From Streptomyces umbrinus (GTDB lineage: Bacteria; Actinomycetota; Actinomycetes; Streptomycetales; Streptomycetaceae), in contig NZ_JAUSZI010000002.1 of the NCBI RefSeq assembly GCF_030817415.1, positions 1,922,001 to 1,986,000 on the forward strand: 64,000 bases of DNA, given 5' to 3'. Each line of letters starts with the position of its first letter. Positions within the stretch are counted from its first letter, which is position 1. The position numbers and the translations under genes were made by a program. The notes under the pieces were generated by a model that saw only the letters and a list, made by a program, of their open reading frames with translations, ran no database searches and had not been told where the DNA came from. This document shows, in pieces, positions 14,328 to 20,372 of the stretch.

Positions 14328-15368
14328 TCAGAGTTCGAGAGCGACGAACCCGTCCGGCTCGTCCGGTGCCGGGGCGGTCACGGTGTAGCCGAAGCGATCC
14401 TTCAGGCCCGTGACGTCCCACAGCGCCGCACGGTCGCGGTAGTTGAAGACGAGTTCCTTCTCGGCTCCGCCGTGCTTGAGGATCCGGGCGATCGCGATCT
14501 CGTTGGGGTGGTCGTGCCGCGCGCCGCTGGTCGATATCAGGTAGCGGTCGCAGTCGATCAGGTCGAGCAGTTCGTTCGAGAGGTTGTGGTCGCTGCCGTG
14601 GTGGGCGACCTTGAGGAGGTCGACGTGCATCCGTCCGCCCTCCGCCTCGGCCCGGGGCCGTATCGACGCCACGAGCCGGCGGTCGTCGGCGTCACCGGTG
14701 AGGACGACCCGCTTGTCCTCGAACTCGAAGAGCAGACCGATGCTCGACACGTTCGTCTTCGACGTGTCGGGCTTGAACACCGACGCGGCCAGCCGGTCCA
14801 CGTTCACGCCGCCGAAGTGCTCGAAGCCCGGGACCGGGGCGTTCTCCTCGGGATCCCGGCCGGGGATCAGACCGTGTCTGGCGCATTCCGCGGTCCAGGC
14901 CGGCGCCAGCTTCTCCAACTGCCTGCGGTCGGGTGAGAGCACGTCCATCGTGGATCCGTCGTCGAACCACGCCAGTTCCCGGCCGACCTCGACACTGCGT
15001 CCGCCGAACGCGTCGTTCCACGGCACCTTCTGTTCCAGCAGGACGCTGGTGAGCTTCTCCCCGTCCTGGGCGCCGAACCCCTCGGTGTCGAGGAGGTGGT
15101 CGAAGCCGTTGAACCACACGTCCCCGAACTCCACCGACCGGTCGAGGTCGTCCAGCAGGGCGAGCACGCCGAGGATGTGGTCCTGGTCGACATGGGTGAC
15201 GACGAGGACGTCGACCTGACCGTCGAGCCCGGCGAGCGTGGGCTTGATCAGCGGATACGTGCCCGAGCGGCCGCCGTCGACGAGGATCCGGCGTACGAAG
15301 CCGCCGTCGCCGTACTCCAGGAGCAGGCAGTCGCCGTCCTCGCCGGGCATCATCGTGAACCGGATCAT
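14328..15368 (-). CDS. ComEC-like metallo-beta-lactamase-fold hydrolase
   Basis: 346-aa MBL-fold protein. The metal-binding motif HVDQDH is at residues 59-64, a second ligand region reads LTGDADDRRL, and AHHGSDHN gives a further histidine cluster. This set is typical of the soluble MBL domain of ComEC/Rec2-type and related phosphodiesterases. The N-terminus (IRFTMMPGEDGDCLLLEYG) resembles the GxGDxxLI opening of that group. No signal peptide or membrane helix is seen, so it is cytosolic. Its ATG at 15368 overlaps the stop of the upstream gene (ATGA), and it is third in the caspase operon. Substrate is unknown; nucleic acid or a nucleotide is a reasonable guess from the family. Confidence 0.88.
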   Translation of the reverse strand: MIRFTMMPGEDGDCLLLEYGDGGFVRRILVDGGRSGTYPLIKPTLAGLDGQVDVLVVTHVDQDHILGVLALLDDLDRSVEFGDVWFNGFDHLLDTEGFGAQDGEKLTSVLLEQKVPWNDAFGGRSVEVGRELAWFDDGSTMDVLSPDRRQLEKLAPAWTAECARHGLIPGRDPEENAPVPGFEHFGGVNVDRLAASVFKPDTSKTNVSSIGLLFEFEDKRVVLTGDADDRRLVASIRPRAEAEGGRMHVDLLKVAHHGSDHNLSNELLDLIDCDRYLISTSGARHDHPNEIAIARILKHGGAEKELVFNYRDRAALWDVTGLKDRFGYTVTAPAPDEPDGFVALEL

Positions 15369-16651
15369 TGCTGTCTCCCTCGCAGAGCGACGATCACGAA
15401 CGGCTCGCGCATGTCGACGCGCCACGACAGGCGGCGGGCCTGTTCGAGCCGCGCGGCGCACCCGGGGTCGTCGGGGAACTCGGAGAGCCCGTGGATGAGG
15501 CGGCTCAGCCCCAGGGTGAAGACGGGCACTCCGCGGTCGAAGGCCTCGACCAGGGCGTCCCGCGCCGCCTCCCGCTCCGGCTCGGTGTGGGCCCGGCGCA
15601 GATGCCGCATGGCCCACAGCAGGGATCCGTCGCTCAACCAGTCGAACTCGTGCCGCAGCCGGGACAGCCAAGGGTCCCAGCGGTGCGGCCGCTCGGTCAG
15701 CTCGCTGCCGACGAGTACATAGGCGCCCGCCACCGCCGCGAGCGGGTTGGTCATCCTGCCGTCGTAGAGCATGGTCTCCGCGTCCCTGACCAGCGTCGCC
15801 GCCGCGTCGAAGGCGCCCCGGGCCATGTACGCCAGGGCGGGCCCCACCCGGCTGTCCCGTACGGACACCGAGACGGCGCTGCCGGTCGGGCTCTGCCGTT
15901 CGTTGACGAGGACCTCGACCTGCGCGTCACCCCAGGGGGCGGGCAGGGTGACGACGTACTCGGTGCCGGCCAGCGAGACGACCAGGAACTGGCGTGGACC
16001 CAGGGGCACGTCGAGCGTGCGGCCGCCCCGCTCGTCGACCGGGCCGTGCTCGCCGAAGCGGTACAGCCGGGCGGCGGCGTCGCCCAGTTCGAGACTGGCG
16101 ACGGTGTGCGGTTCGGAGCGGGCGATCTCGAACGGGACCAGTTGCTTCGCGGGCCCGTCGGTCAGCCGGAGCATCGACGGGAACTGCCAGCTCGTCGGCT
16201 TCGGGTCGCCGACCCAGGCCGCGTGTCCGGGTTCGATGAACGCGCCGCGCTCCCAGGTCCCGGACCGCGAGCCCAGGGAGCGGGGTACGGGAATCGTGAG
16301 CCCGTCGTGGTAGGCCCCGTAGGACTCGATGTTGCCCATCAGGTGCTGCCAGGAGTGCGACTCGAAGGGCGAGGCCGCCGGGCGGAGCGTCACCTGCATC
16401 TCCTCGCCGTCCGCCACCTCGGCGTCCTTGGAGAGCACGACCCCGGAGGGCAGTGTGGCGGACACGATGTAGTGGCCGGGGTCGACCTCGAACCGCGCCG
16501 GAGGTGCCGTGGTCCCGCAGGGGAAGAGGACGGCGCGGTGACCCGGGCCGCTGCCCTCGGACGGGTAGATGTTGCCGACCACCTTCGCCCCGTCGGCGAG
16601 GTCGGCTTCGTGGAGGCTCAGCTCGACGTTCACGCTCAGGCCCGCGCTCAT
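15365..16651 (-). CDS. Conserved protein of unknown function in the caspase/MBL operon
   Basis: 428-aa protein that I do not assign to a family. The first 90 residues look beta-rich, alternating hydrophobic strands such as LSVNVELSLHEADL and HYIVSATLPSGVVLS, like an Ig or carboxypeptidase-regulatory-like sandwich. A middle part (about 180-290) also appears beta-rich. The last 140 residues are helical with repeated Arg and Leu, including GPALAYMARGAFDAAATLVRDAE and SLLWAMRHLRRAHTEPEREAARDALVEAF, suggesting TPR-like or scaffold helices. There is no signal peptide. Its ATG overlaps the caspase stop (ATGA) and its own stop overlaps the MBL start, so the three products are probably made in fixed ratio. 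It is a plausible adaptor or caspase substrate; that is inference. Confidence 0.8.
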   Translation of the reverse strand: MSAGLSVNVELSLHEADLADGAKVVGNIYPSEGSGPGHRAVLFPCGTTAPPARFEVDPGHYIVSATLPSGVVLSKDAEVADGEEMQVTLRPAASPFESHSWQHLMGNIESYGAYHDGLTIPVPRSLGSRSGTWERGAFIEPGHAAWVGDPKPTSWQFPSMLRLTDGPAKQLVPFEIARSEPHTVASLELGDAAARLYRFGEHGPVDERGGRTLDVPLGPRQFLVVSLAGTEYVVTLPAPWGDAQVEVLVNERQSPTGSAVSVSVRDSRVGPALAYMARGAFDAAATLVRDAETMLYDGRMTNPLAAVAGAYVLVGSELTERPHRWDPWLSRLRHEFDWLSDGSLLWAMRHLRRAHTEPEREAARDALVEAFDRGVPVFTLGLSRLIHGLSEFPDDPGCAARLEQARRLSWRVDMREPFVIVALRGRQQ

Positions 16652-17820
16652 GGCTTCTCCAACTTCACGCGGCGGAACACCGGACGTACGGTGACGGACT
16701 TCGTCCGCACGTCCTGGTCGCCGAGTCTGGCCTCGAAGTCGTAGTCCCCGAAGCGCAGTTCGATGGCCCACTCCCTCTGGGGGTCCTCGCCGTCGACGTC
16801 GCCCGCGGCCCGATGCAGCCGTTCGAGACCGTCTTCACGGCAGACGAACTCGGCCTCGGCGTTGTCCTCGGCGGGATCGCAGCCGACGTACACCGGGACG
16901 ACCGGCGGGCCGTCCAGCTGATGGAGGACGAACACGGGCAGTTCGCCGACCGAGGGGACCTGGACGCCCGCGACCGCCCCGGCGAACCGCGGCTGACGCA
17001 TGAAGTGGTCGATGGCCTTCAGCAGGTCGGAGGTGTCGACCCGCCAGTCGCCCTCGGGATCGTCGCTCGCGGCGCCGGAGAAGCTCTTCAGCAGGGCCTC
17101 GGTGAACAGGCTCACCTGACCGGGCCGCGCGTGCGAGCGGTCGCCGGACAGGGTGGCGTAGTACGGGATGTGGAAGCGGCGGGGGAGATCGAGGGGCCGC
17201 GTCCCCGCGCCGAGCGGCGAGCGCCCCGCGAACCGGGCGCCCGAACGCTCGATGAGGACATCGGAGTTGGACCGGCAGGCGTCGACGAAGAACACCTGCT
17301 CGCTCGCCTTGCACCGCTTGAGGCCGTTCATCAGGCCCGCGAAGTCCAGTGCGCTGTTGAGGGGGTTGTGCTCGTCGGCGAAGATGTCCGCGGCCAGGAG
17401 CGCCATGTCGTCGCCCTGCGAGACGCCGTGGCCGCAGAAGTAGAAGACGAGCCGGTTGTCGACATGGCTGTCGCCGCGGTCGTACCACTGGGTGACCGCC
17501 GTGAGGATGTTGTCGATGGTGGCGGTCTCGACCTGGTGGGCCTGCTGGGTGCGGGGGTTCACGAACGGGGCCGGCGTCTCCTCGCTGAGCAGCAGGGCGA
17601 CGCTGCCGAGCGGTCGCCCGGGGTCGTGGTACTCGGCCAGCAGCCAGGTCGCGAGCGTACGGGCGGAGATGGGCGGCGAACTGAGCTGCCGCATTCCGTC
17701 GGAATCGGCGACCGGTGCCTCGCCACCGGCGAGGTGGGGATACTTGCCGACGCCGATGACCAGTGCGTGGGTGCACGGAGAACCGGCGTGCTCATCGAGG
17801 TGGACCACGGAACCGGCCAT
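16648..17820 (-). CDS. Caspase-like (C14 family) cysteine peptidase
   Basis: 390-aa protein with a caspase/metacaspase fold. The catalytic dyad is clear: H131 in VFYFCGHGVSQGD and C182 in VFFVDACRSNSD, each after a hydrophobic strand. The N-terminal strand HALVIGVGKYPHL is the usual first strand of the p20-like subunit. Residues about 300-390 form an extra beta-rich C-terminal region that may bind a partner. No signal or transmembrane segment is seen. The ATG at 17820 is chosen because GGAGGATCC lies directly upstream; an in-frame ATG at 17871 has no ribosome-binding site. It leads a three-gene operon and faces the DUF2235 gene across a 134-bp promoter region. Bacterial caspases often act in regulated cell death or phage defence; that role here is inferred. 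Confidence 0.9.
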   Translation of the reverse strand: MAGSVVHLDEHAGSPCTHALVIGVGKYPHLAGGEAPVADSDGMRQLSSPPISARTLATWLLAEYHDPGRPLGSVALLLSEETPAPFVNPRTQQAHQVETATIDNILTAVTQWYDRGDSHVDNRLVFYFCGHGVSQGDDMALLAADIFADEHNPLNSALDFAGLMNGLKRCKASEQVFFVDACRSNSDVLIERSGARFAGRSPLGAGTRPLDLPRRFHIPYYATLSGDRSHARPGQVSLFTEALLKSFSGAASDDPEGDWRVDTSDLLKAIDHFMRQPRFAGAVAGVQVPSVGELPVFVLHQLDGPPVVPVYVGCDPAEDNAEAEFVCREDGLERLHRAAGDVDGEDPQREWAIELRFGDYDFEARLGDQDVRTKSVTVRPVFRRVKLEKP

Positions 17821-17889
17821 GGATCCTCCGGAACCCCTACTACCGCGCCGGAGCATGCCCGAAGGCAGCATTTTCCCTATTATATTCCT

Positions 17890-17908
17890 GAGACATCCAA
17901 TGTGTCCC
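17890..17908. promoter_or_regulatory. Candidate operator between caspase and DUF2235 genes
   Basis: GAGACA-N7-TGTCCC is an imperfect inverted repeat inside an unusually AT-rich stretch (17868-17920) that also holds TATTATATT and GATATATC. The 134-bp divergent region is the only place from which both operons can be transcribed, so a shared operator is plausible. Confidence 0.4.
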
Positions 17909-17954
17909 GATATATCAGCAGTGACCGTGTTCCTCGGTGAACGTGAGGCCCCCC

Positions 17955-19040
17955 ATGGCCAAGAATCTCGTCGTCTGTCTGGACGGCACGGGCAATCAGT
18001 TGAAGGCGAAAGGGAACACCAATGTCGTCCGGCTCTACGAAATGCTGGACCTCACCGATCCCGCCCGGCAGATCGCCTATTACGACCCCGGTGTCGGCAC
18101 GTTCTCTGCCGCGGGTGCCTGGACACCTGTGGGCCGGCATCTGTCGAAACTCCTCGGTCTCGCCTTCGGCTCCGGAATGCGGACCAACCTCGCCGAGGCC
18201 TACACCTATCTGATGCGGCACTACCAACCGGGCGACCGCATCTACGTGTTCGGCTTCAGCCGCGGCGCCTACACGGCCCGTGCCCTGGTGGGCATGCTCA
18301 AGGCGGTCGGTCTGATGCGGCCCGGCATGGAGAACCTCGTCCCGTACGCCGTGTCCGTCTACGCGAGGAACAAGGACTGGACGCGGGAGGACTGGGACCA
18401 ACTCCACCGATTCGCGGGCGCGTTCAGCAACGCGGTCGACGGGCGGGTCGGCATCCGCGTCGAGTACCTGGGGATCTGGGACTCCGTGAAGGCCGCGGGC
18501 CTCCTGCGCTGGAACCTGCGCTGGCCGTACACCCGTCAGGCTCCGAACGTCCGCCGCATCCGCCACGCCGTGTCCATCGACGAGAAGCGCAGGCCCTACC
18601 GCGAGTACCTCGTCACCCCCGCCGACGGGGACAGGAAGCGGGCCGCCGTGCCGTCGACGGTCGAGCAGGTGTGGTTCGCCGGGGTCCATTCCGACATCGG
18701 CGGAACCTTCGACGACGATCCCCGGCTCCCCACGATCGCCCTCAAGTGGGTCGTGGACGGCGCCCTCGAAGCGCGGGACGGCGAGCCCGATGCGCGTCTC
18801 CTCCTGAAGCCCCGGGCCTACGAGCGCGAGGTGACCCTCGTGCCCGAGGACGCCCTGGGCAAGGTGCACCGGATGGGCTGGATCTGGGCTCTGCTCACCT
18901 ACCGGCGTCGCGGACTCCCCCAGGGCGCGCACGTGCACGAGAGCGTCCGCGCGCGGTTGGAGAAGGACGCCGCCTACGCGGACCGGATCCCGCCGACGGC
19001 CCTCTGGGCGGACGCCGGCTGGCTCACTGCCCGGGAGTGA
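17955..19040 (+). CDS. DUF2235 alpha/beta hydrolase (Tle1-like phospholipase fold)
   Basis: 361-aa protein of the DUF2235 family, which includes the catalytic domain of type VI secretion phospholipase effectors. It opens with the family block KNLVVCLDGTGN. The nucleophile elbow GFSRGAYTAR places Ser102 in GxSxG form. Further conserved acid/histidine sites are D176 in GIWDSVKA and H245/D247 in GVHSDIGG. There is no signal peptide or T6SS adaptor, so it should be cytosolic. The ATG at 17955 follows GTGAGG; a GTG at 17937 is less likely. It is divergent from the caspase operon. Its last residues (WLTARE) are encoded by the first unit of a 27-bp repeat, so the C-terminus may be altered relative to relatives. 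Confidence 0.9.
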   Translation: MAKNLVVCLDGTGNQLKAKGNTNVVRLYEMLDLTDPARQIAYYDPGVGTFSAAGAWTPVGRHLSKLLGLAFGSGMRTNLAEAYTYLMRHYQPGDRIYVFGFSRGAYTARALVGMLKAVGLMRPGMENLVPYAVSVYARNKDWTREDWDQLHRFAGAFSNAVDGRVGIRVEYLGIWDSVKAAGLLRWNLRWPYTRQAPNVRRIRHAVSIDEKRRPYREYLVTPADGDRKRAAVPSTVEQVWFAGVHSDIGGTFDDDPRLPTIALKWVVDGALEARDGEPDARLLLKPRAYEREVTLVPEDALGKVHRMGWIWALLTYRRRGLPQGAHVHESVRARLEKDAAYADRIPPTALWADAGWLTARE

Positions 19041-19099
19041 CCCTCCTGGCTCACCGCCCGGCAGTGATCCCCACAGGTTCACCGCCCGCAGTGCCCCCC
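19019..19099. repeat. Three degenerate tandem 27-bp repeats
   Basis: Units start with CTGGCTCACTGCCCGGGAGT, CTGGCTCACCGCCCGGCAGT and ACAGGTTCACCGCCCGCAGT. The first supplies the last codons and stop of the DUF2235 gene; the third abuts the amidohydrolase relic. They mark a likely rearrangement junction. Confidence 0.75.
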
Positions 19100-20136
19100 C
19101 ACCCACAGGGCGGTGTAGGTACGCCCCCATGGGCTCGCCAGATATCTTGCCCGTCCGCAGGATGTGATGGCCTCTCAGGAAGGTGTCCGTGACCTGGGCG
19201 GTCAGCTCGAAGCCCTCGAACGGGGTGTACTCCTGCGCCGACTCGGACTCGGCGGCGCGCACGGTCCAGGTACGGTCCGGGTCGACCAGGGCGATGTCGG
19301 CGTCGAAGCCGGGTGCGAGGGTTCCCTTGGTGCGCAGCCCGTAGCGGCGGGCCGGGTTCCAGGAGGTCAGCGCCGAGATCCGGCCCAGGGACAGGCCGCG
19401 CCTGGTGCCCTCGGTGATCAGGCCGGGGAGGAGGTACTCGGCTCCGCCGAAACCCCGACCTGGCGAGGAACACGTCGTCCTTGGGCTCGCCGAACTTCGC
19501 CTCCTCGCGGCAGCACGCGTGATCGCTGACGACCCGGTCGCCGGTGCCGTCGAGCACGTACTCCCACAGCGCTTCGACGTCGTCGCGGGGCCGCAGCGGC
19601 GGGTTGACCTTGCCGCCGAGGCCGTGCGCGGTGGTGATGTCGGCAAGCAGATGTCCGACGGTGACCTCGCGTCGGAAGTCGATGTGCGGGAACGCCCGGC
19701 TCATCCGCACGGCCGCGTCCACCGCCTTGCGGGACGACAGATGCAGCAGGTTGATCGTCGGCAGCCCGGTCTCGTGCGCGAGGTAGGCGGCGACGGAGAC
19801 CGCGAGCCCCTCGGAGTGCGGCGGCCGGGAGGCGCTGTAGGCGGCGAGCCCGGTCAGCTCGCCCGCCTCCTCGACCAGCTTGGTGTACGCGGTCATGATC
19901 TCGGCGGTCTCGCAGTGCAGGGACAGGAAGATCTCGTCGGCGAGTTCGGGAAACCGCTCGCGGGCGGCCTGTACCCCGCGCATCACGAACTCGAAGTGCG
20001 CGTAGTCGTACCGCTCGTCCTCGGGGATCATCAGGAACGCGTTCTGGTCGGCCGATCTGCCGTGCGGACCATGACTGCCGTAGAACATGAACACCTTGAA
20101 CGAGGTGACGCCGAACCGCTCGATCAGCTCGGGCAC
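19100..20136 (-). pseudogene. 5'-truncated, frameshifted dihydropyrimidinase/hydantoinase-type amidohydrolase
   Basis: The frame opening at 20136 (PELIERFGVTSFKVFMFYGS) matches the middle of cyclic-amidase amidohydrolases and continues through LSLHCETAE, NLLHLSSRKA and VVSDHACC, which carry metal-ligand histidines and an aspartate. Near 19449 one extra base shifts the frame; the other frame resumes with GGAEYLLPGLITEG and SWNPARRYGL through HRPVGG close to 19100. The N-terminal 130 or so residues with the HxH metal motif are absent, and no start or ribosome-binding site is seen at 20136. The gene is therefore non-functional. It sits between two unrelated genes and next to the 27-bp repeats, consistent with an old deletion endpoint. 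Confidence 0.85.
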
Positions 20137-20372
20137 CCGTGCCGTGCAAGGGGTCGCCTTCGTCGCTCATCTCACTGCTCCGGCTTCGCCTCGGACAGGA
20201 CTGTGCAAGGACGTGCAGCGACGGTGGCAGACCCTCAGCATGTCGGAGGGAAACAGATCGCGAAAGAACGCAACAGGGGCCCCGGGGGGGGGCGAACCGC
20301 CTCCCGGGACCCCTCAACTCCCTCCGGACCCTTCGAACTCTCCGAACCGTTCGGCCGGAACCGCCGGGAGGG
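20137..20372. other. Intergenic remnant region with a 9-G run
   Basis: No gene is supported in these 236 bases. A run of nine G at 20284-20292 is unusually long for this sequence and is a candidate for miscalled length or slippage. The region probably holds the termination site of the pyruvate carboxylase transcript, but only weak dyads were seen. Confidence 0.5.

Follow-up and report, generated by a model that had tools for sequence, protein, structure and literature searches.

A probable Canu-type caspase-nuclease operon of Streptomyces and its divergent DUF2235 gene, a candidate lipase-class effector

Organization of the locus

The window considered here is a stretch of 64,000 nucleotides of Streptomyces umbrinus (assembly GCF_030817415.1, contig NZ_JAUSZI010000002.1, positions 1,922,001 to 1,986,000). 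At its positions 14328-19040 lie a three-gene operon on the minus strand, coding for a caspase-family protease, a middle protein, and a metallo-beta-lactamase (MBL)-fold protein, and a DUF2235 gene transcribed divergently from it. The operon genes are named here after canABC of Canu (caspase-nuclease), a system published in November 2025 with a tested antiphage example from Klebsiella aerogenes, in which the CanAB caspase complex activates the gated MBL pro-nuclease CanC (Tuck et al. 2025, PMC12799240). The features are the following:

14328-15368, minus strand: canC-like MBL-fold gene, 346 aa, predicted pro-nuclease
15365-16651, minus strand: canB-like gene, 428 aa, with an N-terminal beta sandwich, a middle beta region, and C-terminal TPR-like helices (residues 266-411)
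16648-17820, minus strand: canA-like caspase-family protease gene, 390 aa, with H131/C182 and a C-terminal beta sandwich (residues ~303-390)
17821-17954: divergent intergenic region of 134 bp, likely holding the promoters of both transcription units, the operon and DUF2235
17955-19040, plus strand: DUF2235 gene, 361 aa, Tle1-like alpha/beta hydrolase with the predicted triad S102/D176/H245

All four reading frames are intact and open. On the minus strand, the caspase gene is followed by the middle gene and then by the MBL gene, and both junctions are 4-base ATGA overlaps; the four genes, their coupling, and the 134-bp divergent gap described in the initial annotation of this DNA are thus all borne out by the sequence. 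For the caspase, the start at 17820 is favored over an alternative ATG upstream, at 17871, by the aligned start and a GGAGG-type ribosome site in the compared loci. Across the 13 loci having both DUF2235 and the operon, the intergenic region measures 88 to 148 bp, and its alignment contains a conserved T/A-rich block together with the caspase ribosome site.

Conservation and distribution of the four genes

With the middle protein as the query, 15 matches were obtained among 392 genomes of the genus (genomes are numbered G, loci L), 14 of which are real; the other, in G250, covers 86 residues at 35% with no caspase or MBL gene nearby, and it was dropped as a homologue. In a sample of the order, 3 of 197 genomes matched, namely, that of the window, G250, and one new locus. 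The 14 genus genomes, the locus from the order sample, and the nearest named relative, S. phaeochromogenes NRRL B-1248 (96 to 98% identity for each operon protein), provided the 16 loci compared below. A single-protein scan of genome contigs matched only the near relative, and in a phylum sample of 296 genomes CanB was found solely in the window's genome, five candidates being scored per genome, so that divergent forms may escape. Viral contigs contained no CanB relative and five weak MBL matches, and phage records just three weak MBL matches.

The caspase, middle, and MBL genes occur in the same order in all 16 loci, and the divergent DUF2235 gene accompanies them in 13. Furthermore, when loci sharing at least three flanking genes were grouped, 10 flanking contexts resulted, across which the three-gene operon is retained. 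The pairwise distances among the three operon proteins correlate with r values of 0.97 to 0.99, as computed over related loci that are not independent points. The distribution is patchy (14/392 genus genomes); wherever the contig exceeds 8 Mb (seven cases), the cassette maps to its outer 16%, contig ends being taken as chromosome ends, and one Streptomyces copy of the operon is plasmid borne. The four genes are a conserved cassette, and the retention of the three-gene operon goes beyond what chance would produce.

DUF2235 proteins at an E value of 1e-90 or better are present in 20 of the 392 Streptomyces genomes. Close orthologues (71 to 100% identity) account for 12 of those 20, and 11 of the 12 stand beside the operon. 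The twelfth (G248, L039 8524-9544) adjoins the short pieces of the caspase and MBL genes that survive after internal deletions, which took most of canABC and spared DUF2235 entirely. The co-occurrence of hydrolase and operon, which the initial annotation had singled out as its check, is therefore found both by locus and by orthologue. The other eight genomes hold DUF2235 relatives of 56 to 60% identity, as well as an interrupted copy at 63%; no CanA, CanB, or CanC is encoded within ~10 kb of those relatives. In the loci viewed (L040-L048), the 56-60% relatives adjoin a gene of ~290 aa, which in the three loci tested is a DUF6424 gene, and the pair would represent a separate two-gene unit.

Canu-like features of the operon

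Several features indicate that the operon is very probably of the Canu type. Its order, with the caspase first, a middle partner, and the MBL nuclease last, is that of canABC; two loop insertions bearing conserved glycines are described for CanC, and TPR and Ig-like folds are reported among canu loci (PMC12799240). Moreover, the best PADLOC models for the MBL protein are LmuA, Avs1a, and RTasMBL (221, 154, and 147 bits), that is, models of systems whose gated nucleases are treated in the same work (PMC12799240). The statement that no named system has this gene set has to be revised accordingly, since three of the four genes match Canu.

CanC shows the catalytic motifs H-x-D-x-D-H (residues 59-64), D226, and HHGS (256-259), and it matches Lactamase_B with 32.5 bits. 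The solved structure nearest to it by sequence is ComEC, with respect to which CanC is ~65 residues longer between the catalytic blocks, as 127 residues separate L73 from D201, versus 62 between the aligned blocks of the ComEC domain 9ic4. The extra residues are predicted to form two gating loops over the active site, and each predicted loop carries one motif, E96-G-F-G-A and E183-H-F-G-G, respectively. Scanning 20 CanC relatives with the strict pattern E-x-[FLYM]-G-[AGVP], we found it in both loops in 16 and in exactly one loop in L033, L056, L057, and L068; the CanC of Sinorhizobium features ESLGA in both loops. The glycine at position 99 is present in 20/20 sequences and that at position 186 in 17, with alanine in the remaining 3. 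The expectation for the strict pattern is 0.12 per shuffled protein, a figure that serves as a guide only because the pattern was picked with the alignment in view and the sequences scanned, 20 in all, are related to one another. No CanA protein contains the pattern (0/15), and it occurs in 3 of 7 hydrolase-family proteins at unrelated positions, which we took as chance. We propose that the paired motifs of CanC are the sites cleaved by CanA, which would extend the published observation of conserved glycines.

The caspase matches PF00656 (Peptidase_C14) with 44 bits, above the cut-off of 21.4, and its H131/C182 dyad, quoted in advance as catalytic, holds in all 15 aligned caspases. The C-terminal beta sandwich seen in its structure model (~303-390) may correspond to the Ig-like fold expected of Canu. 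A sequence search of the PDB with CanA returned nothing at E 0.1, and MALT1 is not among the 50 matches listed for the CanA model. In the genome of the window (G000), the caspase domain was matched at five places, including this locus and one on the 73-kb contig C3.

The middle protein has no match at E 0.1 in Pfam, NCBIfam, or PADLOC, and Foldseek with the CanB model gave none at E 0.001. Its gene is kept between the caspase and MBL genes in 16/16 loci, and by analogy with the Klebsiella system CanB may bind CanA; the fusion of CanA and CanB into one protein in Bosea fits the reported CanAB complex. Residues 109-113 of CanB (ESYGA, window 16313-16327) lie in a low-confidence loop and resemble the CanC loop motif. 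A motif of the E-x-F-G type (ESYGA, ESYGP, or EPYGA, near residue 109) is present in only 5 of the 14 Streptomyces CanB proteins scanned and is therefore not general; in the window it is a possible self-processing site.

The DUF2235 hydrolase and comparison with known systems

The DUF2235 protein matches PF09994 (T6SS_Tle1-like_cat) with 261.7 bits (cut-off, 27), and S102, D176, and H245 are invariant in the 16 aligned DUF2235 proteins, so that S102, too, stands as first quoted. From their motifs, these residues probably constitute the catalytic triad. The same catalytic domain and predicted Ser/Asp/His triad characterize the Tle1 phospholipase effectors of type VI secretion, from which the window protein differs in having 361 aa, a caspase operon alongside, and sequences of solved Tle1 chains that it resembles only weakly (E values of 3.7e-4 and 0.066).

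Different from Canu as described, the operon is accompanied in Streptomyces by this lipase-like gene, some relatives combine CanA-CanB with a hydrolase while showing no CanC gene in the region viewed, and the Streptomyces loci lie outside defence islands. The words lipase, DUF2235, patatin, and Streptomyc are absent from the main text of PMC12799240, and no title or abstract start in the open-licence literature searched points to canu together with a lipase.

The gated MBL nuclease family is shared with Avs1 (AVAST type 1), protease-Hachiman HamMAB, and Lamassu with an MBL nuclease; however, none of these adjoins the locus. Membership in AVAST type 1 was rejected, as the NCBIfam Avs1a model scores 198.9 bits on CanC (cut-off, 420) and the neighbors are DUF4916/NUDIX, DUF2235, and pyruvate carboxylase genes, with no STAND ATPase. 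The EACC1-caspase two-gene system is likewise an actinobacterial caspase system (PMC7159879), but DUF2235, not EACC1, precedes canA here, and the NF047832 score of 40.9 bits against a cut-off of 140 led us to discard this assignment. According to Kaur et al. 2020 (PMC7159879), the caspase domain of the VMAP ternary systems always has a neighboring alpha/beta-hydrolase gene; those systems are defined by MoxR, vWA, and VMAP components, whereas the immediate neighbors here are other genes.

Plasmid relatives and their lipase-like partners

Searching the plasmid collection with CanC gave 78 records, of which 16 contexts were viewed. A CanA gene is present in eight (L054-L058, L062, L064, and L068) and lacking in the other eight (L059, which has a CanB fragment, L060, L061, L063, L065, L066, L067, and L069), which shows that the MBL family also occurs independently of caspases. 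The related MBL genes of L061 and L063 head sets annotated as ABC-three component systems, and that of L069 is located two genes past a MoxR ATPase gene.

The corresponding search with CanA gave 21 records and 17 viewed contexts, the remaining four looking like duplicates; L081 is broken and 16 contexts are intact. CanC is present in eight of the intact contexts, and none was found in the other eight within the 12-13 kb viewed. A lipase-like gene adjoins canA in 8 of the 16. In Sinorhizobium americanum (L055) it is a divergent patatin gene and in Bradyrhizobium (L062) a DUF2235 gene 8 bp before canA, CanC being present in both; in L071, L072, L073, L079, L080, and L086 it is an alpha/beta-hydrolase-like gene, with no CanC in view. 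Five contexts (L056, L057, L058, L064, and L068) have CanC and no lipase adjoining canA, as judged from incomplete plasmid gene tables, and the generic alpha/beta hydrolase (Abhydrolase_1) of L033/L054, which are one plasmid locus, was not counted as a canu lipase. A different arrangement was observed in L070 (3058-10644) and L082 (5174-11327), where an astacin-like peptidase and a CanA-like caspase are followed by a CanB-like protein of very large size; this last is annotated as trypsin-like in the former and carries trypsin and PLD domains in the latter.

When the hydrolase of the CanC-free loci was itself used as the query, 19 records matched, 15 of which were listed, and 11 contexts were viewed. 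An intact CanA-like gene adjoins the hydrolase in nine of them, L084, L087, and L088 being newly found; L083 has caspase fragments and L085 none. CanC is missing from the stretch viewed in all nine of these hydrolase-bearing CanA-CanB loci, whose CanB match is weak in L079 (E 1e-8), L087 (E 2e-9), and L088 (E 6e-7). Five of the nine hydrolases were aligned, with GHSLGG in L071-L073 and THSMGG in L080 and L084.

Among the matches listed, 2 of 15 records with a relative of the patatin and 2 of 25 with a relative of the Bradyrhizobium DUF2235 also have a CanA match. The Bradyrhizobium DUF2235 shares 50 to 53% identity with other rhizobial DUF2235 proteins versus 36 to 40% with those of Streptomyces, and the canu-free Streptomyces relatives (56 to 60%) are closer to the window's gene than that of Bradyrhizobium is. 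The comparison suggests that the Bradyrhizobium and Streptomyces DUF2235 genes were recruited separately.

Genomic surroundings

The unit is adjoined by a DUF4916/NUDIX gene on one side and, near the DUF2235 side, by a pyruvate carboxylase gene. Two reading frames are located between DUF2235 and pyruvate carboxylase (window 19051-20250); judged by eye, they look like a truncated, frameshifted gene of what we presume to be the dihydropyrimidinase family, and a Pfam scan of 19051-20136 gave no match. In L006 the same gap is only ~145 bp.

The flanks of 14 Streptomyces loci (127 proteins) were scanned with PADLOC at E 1e-10. The mad3 model matched seven times, each time partially and in an ABC-transporter-like ATPase or a neighbor of one, with two of the seven also matching mad8; the other results were two DrmC-model tallies and one match to the CARF_AAA_HTH model. 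As for the plasmid relatives, some are on conjugative plasmids with IetAS and a pair of ThsB-type TIR and caspase as defence neighbors. On rhizobial plasmids, several canu-type loci (L056, L062, L064, and L088) have next to them an AAA/ATP-binding gene paired with an S8 peptidase gene, a pair scored as IetAS by the PADLOC models in L056 and L062; L056 additionally holds a ThsB-type TIR and a second caspase.

Interpretation

We suggest, with a probability of roughly 0.6, that the operon is the Streptomyces form of Canu and that the DUF2235 protein is its lipase-class accessory, most likely a second effector. A functional link between DUF2235 and the operon is in itself quite probable, and the role of second effector rather than regulator, drawn from linkage and exchange only, is an evenly balanced call. 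A conflict or cell-death module, as first proposed for this locus, is still the best reading, the operon now being matched to a tested antiphage system. Most of the locus is explained by the Canu system of 2025, and what is new is the lipase partner and the paired motif.

If the locus works as in Klebsiella, CanC would be expected to be activated by cleavage and to act as a DNase, and the system to serve in defence. CanB, with its beta sandwich and TPR-like part, would hold the caspase CanA and help to sense infection; activated CanA would cut CanC at the paired E-x-F-G-[AG] sites of the two gating loops, and the cleaved CanC would act as a freed DNase, with destruction of the DNA and arrest of the infected cell. 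The divergently expressed DUF2235 protein would add a serine-hydrolase attack, perhaps on membrane phospholipids, and in CanC-free loci the lipase-class protein would be the main effector.

A number of observations weigh against this proposal. The assignment to Canu rests on architecture and homology, not on direct comparison with CanABC of Klebsiella, and the CanA structure model is poor (mean predicted local distance difference test score, 42), the C-terminal sandwich being its sole confident part. The Streptomyces flanks are metabolic, with no defence island among the 127 proteins, and the location in such an island that the initial annotation had put forward for checking was not found; as a group, canu loci are marked by residence in such islands or by nearby transposases, though an individual locus need not show this (PMC12799240). 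DUF2235 is missing from 3 of the 16 loci (L030, L033, and L034), which share one weakly supported group (0.75 to 0.83) with L031, where it is present, so that its loss is likely. Its distances fit those of the operon proteins more loosely (r, 0.84 to 0.89), and the intact gene beside the dead canABC of L039 implies that it may act alone or otherwise. The CanA cleavage motif was sought in DUF2235 and is absent in 16/16 proteins, which are thus not obviously cut by CanA as CanC would be. Linkage alone does not demonstrate lipase activity, and that activity, as well as the activation and the target of DUF2235, is inferred. Finally, the patatin and Bradyrhizobium DUF2235 linkages are each from one lineage, and in the CanC-free loci the Pfam alpha/beta-hydrolase models score below cut-off (17 to 18 bits in three proteins) or do not match (L080 and L084), so that the label "lipase-like" rests there on the motif.

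Some of these observations would suit a Canu operon in which DUF2235 is no killing effector but a regulator or self-protection enzyme, for instance one that hydrolyzes a signal or restrains CanA. Its divergent, separate transcription, the lack of the E-x-F-G motif, and the tolerance of intact DUF2235 alone in G248 are in keeping with such a role, which we nevertheless consider rather unlikely; in the nine plasmid loci with CanA-CanB and no CanC in the stretch viewed, the hydrolase-like gene is the sole evident enzyme besides the caspase, so that an effector fits better.

It is improbable, instead, that DUF2235 merely travels with the operon while serving a role of its own, as may be the case for its relatives next to DUF6424. 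The breadth of the family, the 8 of 392 genomes with a 56-60% relative away from canu (DUF6424 being beside it in the three tested), and the lower distance correlation would agree with this view, but 11 of 12 close orthologues are beside the operon and the twelfth beside its remains, DUF2235 is retained in 13/16 loci despite differing flanks, and in Bradyrhizobium it is paired with canA at 8 bp. Least probable of all is that the operon serves cell death during Streptomyces development or stress rather than defence against phages: the lack of a defence island around the Streptomyces loci and the enrichment of several caspase-bearing conflict systems in multicellular bacteria (PMC7159879) would accord with it, but the patchy presence in the genus, the plasmid copy, the confinement to the outer 16% of the large contigs, and the relatives on conjugative plasmids beside IetAS and the ThsB-type TIR and caspase pair all speak against it.

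Returning to DUF2235 as a second effector, it is possible to hypothesize, tentatively, that CanA-CanB is a general caspase module commanding exchangeable killers, that is, the gated nuclease, several lipases (of the Tle1-like, patatin, and alpha/beta-hydrolase families), and peptidases or PLD domains fused to CanB, with a Streptomyces form carrying two weapons, against DNA and membrane. The present analysis extends the Canu architecture to Streptomyces, names the likely caspase sites in CanC, and points to a lipase-class partner and to directly testable versions that bear a hydrolase and no nuclease. If the caspase does command the lipase, bacteria would pair one caspase with an attack on both DNA and membrane, and the two-weapon Streptomyces form, if real, would loosely parallel the eukaryotic caspases that act on nuclease and membrane-breaking partners.

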